Source: Bacteroidia bacterium (GTDB taxonomy: Bacteria; Bacteroidota; Bacteroidia; Bacteroidales; UBA932). Taken from it: a DNA stretch of 45,208 nt. Made by a program: the position numbers and the translations under genes. This document shows, one piece after another, positions 1 through 45,208 of this stretch. Under the pieces are notes generated by a model. That model saw only the letters and a program-made list of their open reading frames with translations, ran no database searches and was not told where the DNA came from. Position 1 is the first letter of the stretch; each line of letters begins with the position of its first letter. Location of the stretch: the NCBI GenBank assembly GCA_030529945.1, contig JAUMVX010000019.1:1-45208 (forward strand), written 5' to 3'.

Positions 1-63
1 AGGTAGCAACTATTTTTTAACTCGCAAACTTTTCTGCAAAAAAATCAGAAAAATTTTTCAAGC
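1..63 (-). other. AT-rich 3' flank of groEL
   Basis: This short stretch follows the groEL stop on the minus strand. It contains an A/T hairpin with arms TTTTCTG (30-36) and CAGAAAA (46-52) and a palindrome GAAAAATTTTTC (48-59). It may form the 3' end of the groESL transcript, but the stem has little GC and it is not a convincing intrinsic terminator. No gene is visible. Confidence 0.3.
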
Positions 64-1686
64 CTACATCATACCGCCCTGCGGCATAGAGGGAGCCGCC
101 TGAGCAGGCTCAGGGATGTCCACGATGCCGCATTCGGTGGTGAGGAACATACCCGCCACACCTGCAGCATTTTCCAGAGCCACGCGGCTGACCTTCGTAG
201 GGTCGATGACGCCGGCCTCGTACATATTCACATATTCGCCGGTGCGGGCGTTGTAACCGAAGTCACCCTTGCCCTCGCGAATCTTCTGGATGATTACGCT
301 GGCCTCGACACCCGCATTGGCCGCGATCTGGCGGAGCGGGGCCTCGATGGCCTTGGCCACGATGCGGATACCTGTGGTCTCGTCCTCGTTCTCGCCGCTG
401 AGTTTCTCGAGAGCTTCGGCTGCGCGGATGTATGCTACGCCGCCGCCGGGGAGATAGCCTTCTTCTACAGCTGCGCGGGTGGCGTTCAGCGCATCCTCGA
501 CTCTGTCCTTGCGCTCCTTCATCTCGACCTCGGTCGCAGCGCCCACGTAGAGCACAGCCACGCCGCCGGCGAGTTTGCCGAGCCTCTCCTGAAGCTTCTC
601 GCGGTCATAGTCGGAAGTGGTCGTGGAGATCTGCTTGCGGATAAGATCAGTCCTCTCAGCGATCGCGGCCTTGTCTCCGGCACCTCCCACGATGGTGGTG
701 TTCTCCTTCGAGATGGTGACTTTCTCGGCCTTTCCGAGCATCTGGACAGTGGCGTTCTCAAGACTGTAGCCTCTCTCCTCGGAGATGAGGGTCGCGCCGG
801 TGAGGACTGCGATGTCCTGAAGCATTTCCTTGCGGCGGTCGCCGAAGCCCGGAGCCTTCACGGCGGCAATCTTGAGCGTGCCGCGGAGCTTGTTCACCAC
901 GAGAGTGGTAAGAGCCTCGCCGTCCACGTCCTCAGCCACGATGAGGAGTTCCTTGCCCTCGCGGGCGATAGGCTCGAGGATAGGGAGAAGGTCCTTCATA
1001 GTGGAAATCTTCTTCTCGCAGAGCAGGATGTAAGGGTTGTCCAGGACAGCCTCCATCTTGTCGGAGTTCGTCATAAAGTAAGGGGAGATGTAACCTCTGT
1101 CGAACTGCATACCCTCTACGACCTTGACCTCGGTCTCGGTGCCCTTGGCCTCCTCGACGGTGATCACGCCGTCGGTCTTGACCTTCGACATAGCATCGGC
1201 GATGAGCTTGCCGACACGGCAGTCATTGTTCGCGGATACGGTTCCGACCTGCTCGATCTTCGAGTAGTCGTCGCCCACGGTCTGGCTCTGCGCCTTGAGG
1301 TTCTCCACCACGGCGGCCACTGCCTTGTCGATACCGCGCTTGATGTCCATCGGATTGGCGCCGGCGGTGACATTCTTCATACCCACGTTGATGATGGCCT
1401 GCGCGAGCACGGTAGCTGTAGTGGTACCGTCGCCCGCCTGCTCGTTAGTCTTCGAAGCGACTTCCTTCACGAGCTGCGCGCCCATATTCGCGAAGCGGTC
1501 CTCGAGTTCCACTTCCTTAGCCACGGTGACACCGTCCTTGGTGACCTGAGGCGAACCGAACTTCTTCTCTATAACCACGTTGCGACCTTTCGGTCCGAGC
1601 GTCACCTTCACTGCGTCTGCCAATGCGTCAGCCCCTTCCTTCATTCTGGAGCGTACGTCCACATCGAATTTGATATCTTTTGCCAT
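64..1686 (-). CDS. groEL: 60-kDa chaperonin GroEL
   Basis: GroEL forms the double-ring ATP-driven folding chamber of the cytosol and works with the GroES lid. The 540-residue product has the normal family length and is colinear with GroEL throughout. Visible marks are the N-terminal phosphate loop around [10 protein letters not shown] (residues 29-38), the ATPase signature [10 protein letters not shown] with the catalytic Asp at about 86, the apical-domain segment near [10 protein letters not shown] and the flexible C-terminal tail ending GGMM. The gene lies 21 bp downstream of groES on the same strand, so the two form the usual bicistronic operon. No CIRCE operator was found upstream, so HrcA-type control is not supported. 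Codons are strongly biased toward C/G-ending forms, as expected for an abundant protein, except directly before Met, where T replaces C. Confidence 0.99.
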
Positions 1687-1707
1687 AATTTCTGTCTCCT
1701 ATATATA

Positions 1708-1974
1708 TTATATGATTGCAAGAATGTCCGACTGCTTCACGATGAGATACTTCTTCTCGCCGAGAGTGACTTCAGTGCCGGCATACTTGCCGTAGAGCAC
1801 CTCGTCGCCGACTTTAACTTCCATCGCCTCATCCTTCTTTCCGGGACCGGCGGCCACAACTTTACCCTGCTGAGGTTTCTCTTTCGCCGTATCCGGAATG
1901 TAAATGCCTGAAGCTGTTCTGGTCTCGGCCTCCTTAGGCTCGATGACCACTCTGTCTGCCAATGGTTTGATCAT
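1708..1974 (-). CDS. groES: 10-kDa co-chaperonin GroES
   Basis: GroES caps the GroEL ring and is needed for productive folding cycles. The 88-residue protein starts [15 protein letters not shown], the conserved GroES opening, and contains the mobile-loop region ([16 protein letters not shown]) followed by the conserved core near [15 protein letters not shown]. Length and order are typical. It is the first gene of the groES-groEL operon on the minus strand. The ATG at 1974 is preceded by a very AT-rich leader and has no strong Shine-Dalgarno sequence, which is normal for this phylum. Confidence 0.99.
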
Positions 1975-2214
1975 AATGATATTATTAATTAATTGTTATC
2001 CGTTAACCTCTGCGCCGCGCCGCAAGCCCGGTGGAGGCGCAGAGAGAAAATCAAAGCCCGTGCCAAGCGGGAGAGCACTGACATTTTGTCACGCGGCCGC
2101 ACGAGGCGCGGCCAATCTTCCTACACCGCAGCCGCCCGAGGCGCGGCCAATGTACCTTCGGAGTACCCGCTGCGGACGCTCCGGCGGCGGAGCGCTGCGC
2201 AAGACCTCCGCAGA
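1975..2214. other. groES upstream intergenic region with hairpin and direct repeat
   Basis: No gene is convincing here. Next to groES lies a 9-bp inverted repeat, CTCTGCGCC (2008-2016) with GGCGCAGAG (2036-2044), that would fold in the groES leader. Further out is a 15-bp direct repeat, CGAGGCGCGGCCAAT, at 2102-2116 and 2137-2151. Neither resembles CIRCE, and no clear TAnnTTTG promoter element was found on the minus strand. Open frames through this GC-rich stretch have no recognisable protein content. Confidence 0.5.
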
Positions 2215-2248
2215 TAAAAAAGCGGGGCCGGCCATCCGGCCGACCCCG
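2215..2248 (-). terminator. Rho-independent terminator of glyA
   Basis: Read on the minus strand, a GC-rich stem (arms at 2238-2248 and 2223-2233, 4-nt loop, one G-T pair) is followed by a run of six T residues. It sits about 20 bp beyond the glyA stop, as expected for an intrinsic terminator. Confidence 0.85.
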
Positions 2249-2267
2249 ACAATATAAGTCATCCCTT

Positions 2268-44494: not shown

Positions 44495-44866
44495 ATGACC
44501 ATCCACGAGCTCCTCAATATCCGCCTTGATGCCACTGGAGTCATAGATATGCTCAAGTGGCTGAAGGAAATTGACGGGAAGAGCAAGAAGACCGGAGTCC
44601 AGAAGACCCGCTCGCTCATAACCGTCAGAGACCTCATAAGCATCTGCGCCATCAAGATTGACAAACCGAAGGTGCACATCGAGAAGATGAAAGCTCTCTC
44701 CGAGAGCCGCAAGCTGTACAATATGAAGGAACTCTCCGAACGTCTCAGCATCTCGCGCCAGACACTTTACAACTGGAGAGACGAGGGCTGGCTCGTGATG
44801 GATGAAGGCAAGGTTCATCTGCCCCGTACCATCGAACTCTGGGAACTTTTCATCAGAATCATTTGA
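44495..44866 (+). CDS. Small helix-turn-helix protein
   Basis: The 123-residue protein has a C-terminal MerR/excisionase-like helix-turn-helix, MKELSERLSISRQTLYNWRD followed by EGWLVMDEGKVHLPR. The N-terminal helical half (IHELLNIRLDATGVIDMLKW) is unassigned. It is translationally linked to the truncated regulator (3-bp gap). Proteins of this size and design occur as controllers of mobile elements in Bacteroidales; the actual target is unknown. Confidence 0.7.
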   Translation: MTIHELLNIRLDATGVIDMLKWLKEIDGKSKKTGVQKTRSLITVRDLISICAIKIDKPKVHIEKMKALSESRKLYNMKELSERLSISRQTLYNWRDEGWLVMDEGKVHLPRTIELWELFIRII

Positions 44867-44926
44867 CACTGTTCCGGGTTTTTCGGGCTATTCCGTAACC
44901 AAATAAAACCAAACAGGGCCAAAATG

Positions 44927-44972
44927 CATAATCCATTGGACACTTCCATAAAAAAGTGTCCAATGGATTATG
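44927..44972. repeat. Perfect 19-bp inverted repeat (hairpin)
   Basis: CATAATCCATTGGACACTT (44927-44945) and its exact complement (44954-44972) are separated by 8 nt. The hairpin lies 60 bp after the HTH gene. It may be a terminator, although few T residues follow, or a recombination or element-end structure. Confidence 0.85.
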
Positions 44973-45101
44973 TCTTTAAATATCGTTTGATCTACATCGT
45001 TTCGTCATCCTCCCGATCTCGCACGAAACCTGTAAAATGCTATCTATTACACTATTGTAGCTTCAAAGTAAATTCCATTTCTTTGCTGTCGATATATCAC
45101 G

Positions 45102-45127
45102 GTCCATTATGGACACAACCGGTTGTG
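45102..45127. repeat. Two abutting palindromes
   Basis: GTCCAT-T-ATGGAC (45102-45114) is followed at once by the perfect palindrome CACAACCGGTTGTG (45114-45127). Together they look like a double protein-binding site. The rest of 44973-45101 is AT-rich, and no gene is seen. Confidence 0.7.
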
Positions 45128-45168
45128 CCAGATGTTAAATGTAAAATGAAAAAGTTATGTTATATGTT

Positions 45169-45208
45169 GATTGCCACCCAAAACTGAACAGAGATTGCCA
45201 TCGAAAAT
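45169..45208. mobile_element. Possible end of an IS21-like insertion sequence (edge of window)
   Basis: The direct repeat GATTGCCA occurs at 45169-45176 and 45193-45200, 24 bp apart, with CCCAAAACTGAACAGA between. Spaced repeats of about 20 bp at the ends are a property of IS21-family elements. The window ends here, so no transposase can be seen, and the assignment is only tentative. Confidence 0.3.

Follow-up and report, generated by a model that had tools for sequence, protein, structure and literature searches.

CATG depletion in the window and its genome

The DNA considered here is a stretch of 45,208 nucleotides (1..45208, hereafter the window) from the genome of a gut Bacteroidia bacterium (G000, a 2.28-Mb bin of 93 contigs). 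The tetranucleotide CATG is depleted over its whole length, and this depletion is discussed together with a locus on another contig of the same genome, where an ICEA-family endonuclease gene adjoins a D12 adenine methyltransferase gene. Exact counting gave 8 copies of CATG, at positions 20908, 20932, 21028, 21052, 21148, 21247, 26109 and 42593, compared to expectations of 171.7 from base composition and 175.3 from a second-order Markov model. The same eight positions had been listed in a first-pass annotation of the sequence, with a hand estimate of roughly 150–190 copies by chance. Among all 256 tetramers, CATG showed the lowest ratio of observed to expected counts in the window (O/E 0.046), followed by CTAG (0.07) and GATC (0.48). 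The effect was also said to act inside coding regions, and this is borne out: the predicted coding DNA (23 open reading frames of at least 200 amino acids, 37.9 kb) contains 1 CATG, while 200 rounds of shuffling synonymous codons within genes gave 128.3 on average, with a standard deviation of 7.4 and a minimum of 112. The palindrome is held far below expectation beyond effects of codon use and composition, as is characteristic of restriction-site avoidance.

The depletion extends beyond the window. In a set comprising the window and 20 further stretches of G000 (318 kb, one stretch of 2,893 bases being masked, ~315 readable kb), 57 copies were found versus 1,194 expected, i.e. ~180 per Mb, so that the genomic count is far from expectation and about 95% of CATG words have been lost from the DNA of this genome. 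With CTAG as depleted as CATG and GATC moderately low in the window, a general compositional bias or chance might come to mind, CTAG being widely rare in bacteria. The codon shuffles speak against this explanation, and it is refuted by the contrast within the genus: at the same ppdK locus, five of the 28 genus relatives that have it (G001, G018, G022, G030 and G035) are depleted like G000, whereas the other 23 show an O/E of 0.70–1.43. The probability left for composition or chance is negligible.

The surviving copies are not evenly spread. Seven of the eight in the window coincide with CATGCCCG, the core of a single intergenic repeat family. Six belong to an intergenic array (20893..21319) with units of 99–120 bp that include CATGCCCGAC(C/G)TGATCGGG, and the seventh (26109..26112) to another copy of the core. 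The eighth (42593..42596) is the sole CATG within the open reading frames and lies in an AAA_14/DUF4143 ATPase gene on the minus strand (42137-43348). No strand is assigned to the depleted region, the repeats or the CATG positions. Over the G000 stretches the repeat core accounts for 22 of the 57 copies, and the copies are clumped, with a variance-to-mean ratio of 2.6 in 2-kb windows. The remaining CATG is thus found mainly in a few islands and in a family of repeats that spread recently. The family, which contains GATC too, was not found in the ppdK loci of the 28 relatives, in 1.2 Mb of the genus relative G067 or in the 80 ICEA loci described below.

Codon choice shows by which changes CATG has been removed. 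In the window, the His codon CAT is used in 58 of 124 cases before bases other than G but in 0 of 55 before G. C-ending codons make up 1 of 140 before ATG but 370 of 438 before Ile, and NCA codons 0 of 53 before TG but 63 of 413 before other T-codons. Similarly low numbers were obtained for the G000 stretches (CAT before G, 3/386; NNC before ATG, 19/788; NCA before TG, 3/440), the corresponding control fractions being 0.54, 0.83 and 0.17. No such effect is seen in 22 relatives with normal CATG (118/280, 488/655 and 45/135, in the same order). The three different silent changes, in three frames, point to selection against the complete word rather than deamination of one base. A decay signature, in which NNC before ATG would recover first, is only suggestive; the relatives G193, G130 and G161 were not used as a group in this comparison, two contigs being counted twice among them.

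These numbers bear on the second cause that the first-pass annotation had offered, i.e. mutational loss through deamination of 5-methylcytosine at CATG to TATG or CATA. Both products are over-represented in the G000 stretches (O/E 1.29 for TATG, 1.36 for CATA), but the excess is larger for CATC (1.62) and GATG (1.61). CATG is equally lost via T-to-C in His codons (CAT to CAC) and via a changed A, with NCA codons avoided, and neither is a deamination product. Moreover, the only CATG-type methylase gene found in G000 is the D12 enzyme, which is of the adenine class. As a general cause, deamination is rejected on the codon-choice counts, and we consider it highly unlikely.

The ICEA/D12 locus and other restriction genes

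The first-pass annotation had called for a search for a CATG methyltransferase or endonuclease gene, and candidates for both are present on contig C26 of G000, outside the window. There, an ICEA-family gene (PF05315, E 6.9e-53) is directly followed by the D12 adenine methyltransferase gene (M1; PF02086, E 1.1e-49). The ICEA match covers profile positions 113–218 only. While the gene is full length in G130 and G193, on C26 it comprises the HNH half, and the frame is cut off immediately ahead of the HNH motif by a repeated sequence. From base 46 onward the reversed contig end aligns with the ICEA gene of G130, whereas bases 1–45 belong to the repeat, and the junction lies directly 5' of the HNH-like motif DHKDGRK. 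The 45 bases recur without a mismatch at the start of contig C6 (bases 10–54) and match the last bases of the window (45165..45208, strand not assigned) at 42 of 44 positions. This repeat, beginning TGTTGATTGCC, occurs at the ends of the window contig, C6 and C26, and probably marks one end of an insertion element present in several copies. The break is most simply read as such an element interrupting the putative endonuclease gene, with three breaks in the assembly caused by it as well; alternatively, the contig end may be chimeric.

The assignment of CATG as the word of the ICEA/D12 pair is putative and follows from the avoidance going with the genes. A search for relatives of solved structure gave none convincing for ICEA and none for the D12 enzyme. 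In the literature, iceA1 of Helicobacter pylori figures as an endonuclease that recognises CATG, an isoschizomer of NlaIII (PMC13340068, PMC2816704).

Two other restriction loci of the genome were rejected as the cause of CATG loss. The window itself encodes a complete-looking MmeI-like Type IIG enzyme on the plus strand (35984..38872), which matches MmeI nearly end to end (5hr4, E 9e-192; PADLOC model REase_MTase_IIG). Rusinov et al. 2015 (PMC4687349) report that, in the great majority of cases, Type II/G sites show no avoidance, in keeping with the first-pass remark that discounted this enzyme. Contig C16 (L031:1357-2975) carries a DpnII endonuclease gene (PF04556) and its PF01555 methylase gene. 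This locus fits the moderate depletion of GATC in the G000 stretches (O/E 0.43).

CATG avoidance across the genus and at ICEA loci

For a survey of 200 genomes of the genus, CATGAA was counted against its reversed control AAGTAC, and genomes with a CATGAA/AAGTAC ratio below 0.5 were classed as avoiders. The ratio ranges from 0.03 to above 4 with a median of 1.7, and G000 is second lowest. Altogether 25 genomes avoid CATG, including 8 of the 80 that are at least 90% complete. ICEA was found in 3 of the 200 genomes and M1, at a minimum of 65% identity, in 5. M1 together with a nuclease gene is present in G000 (ratio 0.08), G130 (0.46), G193 (0.19) and G161 (0.39), the nuclease being ICEA in G193 and G130 and an EVE/NucS-like protein instead in G161 (L085:353-1495). 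The three genomes other than G000 are all within the bottom 22 of 199 when ranked by ratio (p 0.0012), and within the bottom 17 when ranked by CATGAA per Mb (p 0.0005). In G127, where no nuclease gene adjoins M1, CATG is not avoided (ratio 1.26, rank 54 of 200). Avoidance is stronger with a nuclease (0.08–0.46, four genomes) than with an orphan methylase (1.26), of which there is one case only. In the ppdK tree, the avoider G022 pairs with the non-avoiding G006 (support 100/99) and G018 is grouped with three non-avoiders (support 97/96), so that CATG avoidance has changed more than once.

ICEA loci were also collected from one scan of named genomes, as the best 80 of 119 ICEA relatives; two of them, L217 and L219, appear to be G130 and G193. 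Their hosts comprise Bacteroidales, Helicobacter, Campylobacter, Treponema, Pasteurellaceae, Patescibacteria and others. Of the 80 loci, 74 carry a second methylase gene, M2, 71 carry the D12 gene M1 and 22 a further nuclease gene (the extra gene), usually in the order M2, ICEA, extra, M1, although exceptions occur. The extra gene product shows profile matches to UPF0310/PH1033 near the N-terminus (E 0.0013), which we take to be an EVE-type domain, and to the NucS nuclease domain near the C-terminus (E 0.00025). For the G161 protein, neither a Pfam family (E 0.01) nor a PADLOC model (1e-5) was matched, and within the 200 genus genomes this gene was found only in G161, plus decayed fragments in G193. 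Searching for ICEA on plasmids returned one distant, unannotated match.

The flanks of the 80 loci have a median CATG O/E of 0.42, with values below 0.3 in 31. In six loci (L258, L271, L273, L282, L288 and L293) a C5 methylase replaces M1, and here CATG is not avoided (O/E 0.69–0.97, median 0.83). Loci with a D12 partner have a median of 0.34 (one-sided p 0.003), a comparison made with the 66 of 71 D12 loci whose expected count was at least 8 and all six C5 loci, three other loci lacking D12 being left out. CCGG is low in the C5-type loci (0.23–0.58), a difference from the D12-type loci that is not significant (p 0.078). The C5 swap could possibly represent a change of specificity, with CCGG as a lead. 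Taken together with the optional EVE/NucS nuclease, this exchange suggests a modular CATG cluster.

Origin of the avoidance and comparison with known systems

Very probably, the CATG depletion is a legacy of a Type II restriction-modification system for CATG, of the IceA/NlaIII kind, and a case of classical restriction-site avoidance. This assignment is based on the D12 gene and the HNH half of ICEA in the genome, on silent codon choice in three frames, and on genus relatives with the genes avoiding CATG while most others do not. It supports the first cause named in the first-pass annotation, a past or present CATG restriction system, the apparently interrupted ICEA gene adjoining the D12 gene. 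With both enzymes active, unmethylated CATG, whether from lapses of methylation or in newly arrived DNA, would be cut, and the self-toxicity of cutting would have selected sites away one by one until ~5% were left. A repeated element would later have broken the endonuclease gene, and the signature may now be, at least partly, a fossil.

Several observations weigh against this assignment. The ICEA gene is incomplete as assembled, and its 5' half was not found in the G000 bin. The companion methylase M2 was not found there either, in a search that had no positive control and shows little, while its family does turn up in G130 and G193 by PF01555. Only 4 of the 25 avoiders (G000, G130, G193 and G161) have genes of the CATG system and 21 have none of them, which implies that an IceA-type system is not the only possible source. 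Finally, the flanking CATG O/E exceeds 0.8 in 18 of the 80 ICEA loci, thus carrying the genes is not sufficient.

It is conceivable that a different, unrecognised CATG-targeting system keeps avoidance up today, in G000, in the avoiding relatives or in both, rather than the IceA-type locus. A methylase shared by 18 strong avoiders was sought with PF01555, PF02086, PF02384 and PF00145, and none was common to them; eight (G153, G067, G156, G144, G115, G212, G030 and G107) had no match over the cut-off, two of which are 97–99% complete. G067 avoids both GATC (111 of 4,672 expected, 0.024) and CATG (393 of 5,025 expected, 0.078), no DNA methyltransferase was recognised in 1.37 Mb by motif reading, and 1.20 Mb contained no significant match to ICEA, M1, M2, EVE/NucS or DpnII remnants. 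An unrelated CATG endonuclease does exist, UpaP162 of Ureaplasma (PMC6191088). On the other hand, traces of lost systems are common in the literature (PMC4687349), and metagenome bins often lack plasmids and loci flanked by repeats, G000 having just such a gap at its own ICEA locus. Lost systems, strain polymorphism and unbinned plasmids can explain the avoiders that lack the genes, and the IceA/D12 locus suffices as a cause within its own genome. A separate system upholding the avoidance is rather improbable.

For the genus as a whole, we put forward a broader but doubtful proposal, in which avoidance would be the recurrent, long-lasting imprint of an agent that can mostly no longer be seen in the genomes. 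One candidate would be a fast-moving four-gene CATG module (M2, IceA, EVE/NucS nuclease and D12 methylase) that spreads through species only to be broken soon afterwards; the other would be an unrecognised system that targets CATG and needs none of the four common families of DNA methyltransferase. In the first case, the module would represent a two-nuclease Type II system, with an HNH nuclease cutting unmodified CATG, an EVE nuclease cutting modified phage DNA, and a word that can be switched by exchanging D12 for C5.

Site avoidance and traces of lost systems are already known, and the phenomenon is of a known kind; less usual are its strength, its recurrence and the optional second nuclease in the cluster. 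Here, an extreme sequence-wide signature is tied to a named gene pair, and a single genus spans several states, from genomes that have the genes, through those with an orphan methylase or a broken nuclease gene, to those that lack all of them. This range makes the pace at which restriction avoidance builds up and fades directly measurable. Furthermore, CATG density can serve as a simple marker of recently arrived DNA in purged genomes. Our literature search, in which most subscription journals were outside the scope, returned no description of an M2–IceA–EVE/NucS–M1 cluster or of CATG avoidance in this genus.

The C26 locus resembles iceA1-hpyIM of H. pylori and NlaIII of Neisseria lactamica, in which an ICEA endonuclease (PF05315) is likewise followed by an adenine-class D12 methyltransferase and the affected word is CATG. 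In H. pylori, too, the endonuclease gene is often broken and the methylase kept (PMC13340068, PMC10423294). Different from these systems, most of the ICEA loci collected here have M2 upstream, and over a quarter (22 of 80) the EVE/NucS-like gene. Moreover, CATG is among the two densest target motifs of H. pylori (9,036 per Mb, compared to ~180 per Mb in G000), a species in which the methylase for CATG is universal but the nuclease is often lacking (PMC10423294); this abundance is the expected contrast to G000. The extra gene recalls the EVE-PD(D/E)XK fusions, proposed to be modification-dependent (Type IV) endonucleases (PMC7641849), in its profile matches to a putative EVE-type domain and to NucS. 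Unlike those fusions, it resides inside a Type II operon, between or beside the ICEA and D12 methylase genes. The DpnII-type system of G000 differs in its word, its gene families and its weaker avoidance. Lastly, the findings agree with the avoidance described by Rusinov et al. 2015 (PMC4687349), where 4-bp palindromes are strongly under-represented, also in genomes without the genes, and avoidance is weak or lacking for orphan methylases. Compared to that work, the present case stands out by near-total loss of the word (O/E 0.05; 1 of 128 in the coding DNA of the window) and by its occurrence, at the ratio cut-off applied here, in 25 of 200 genomes of one genus.

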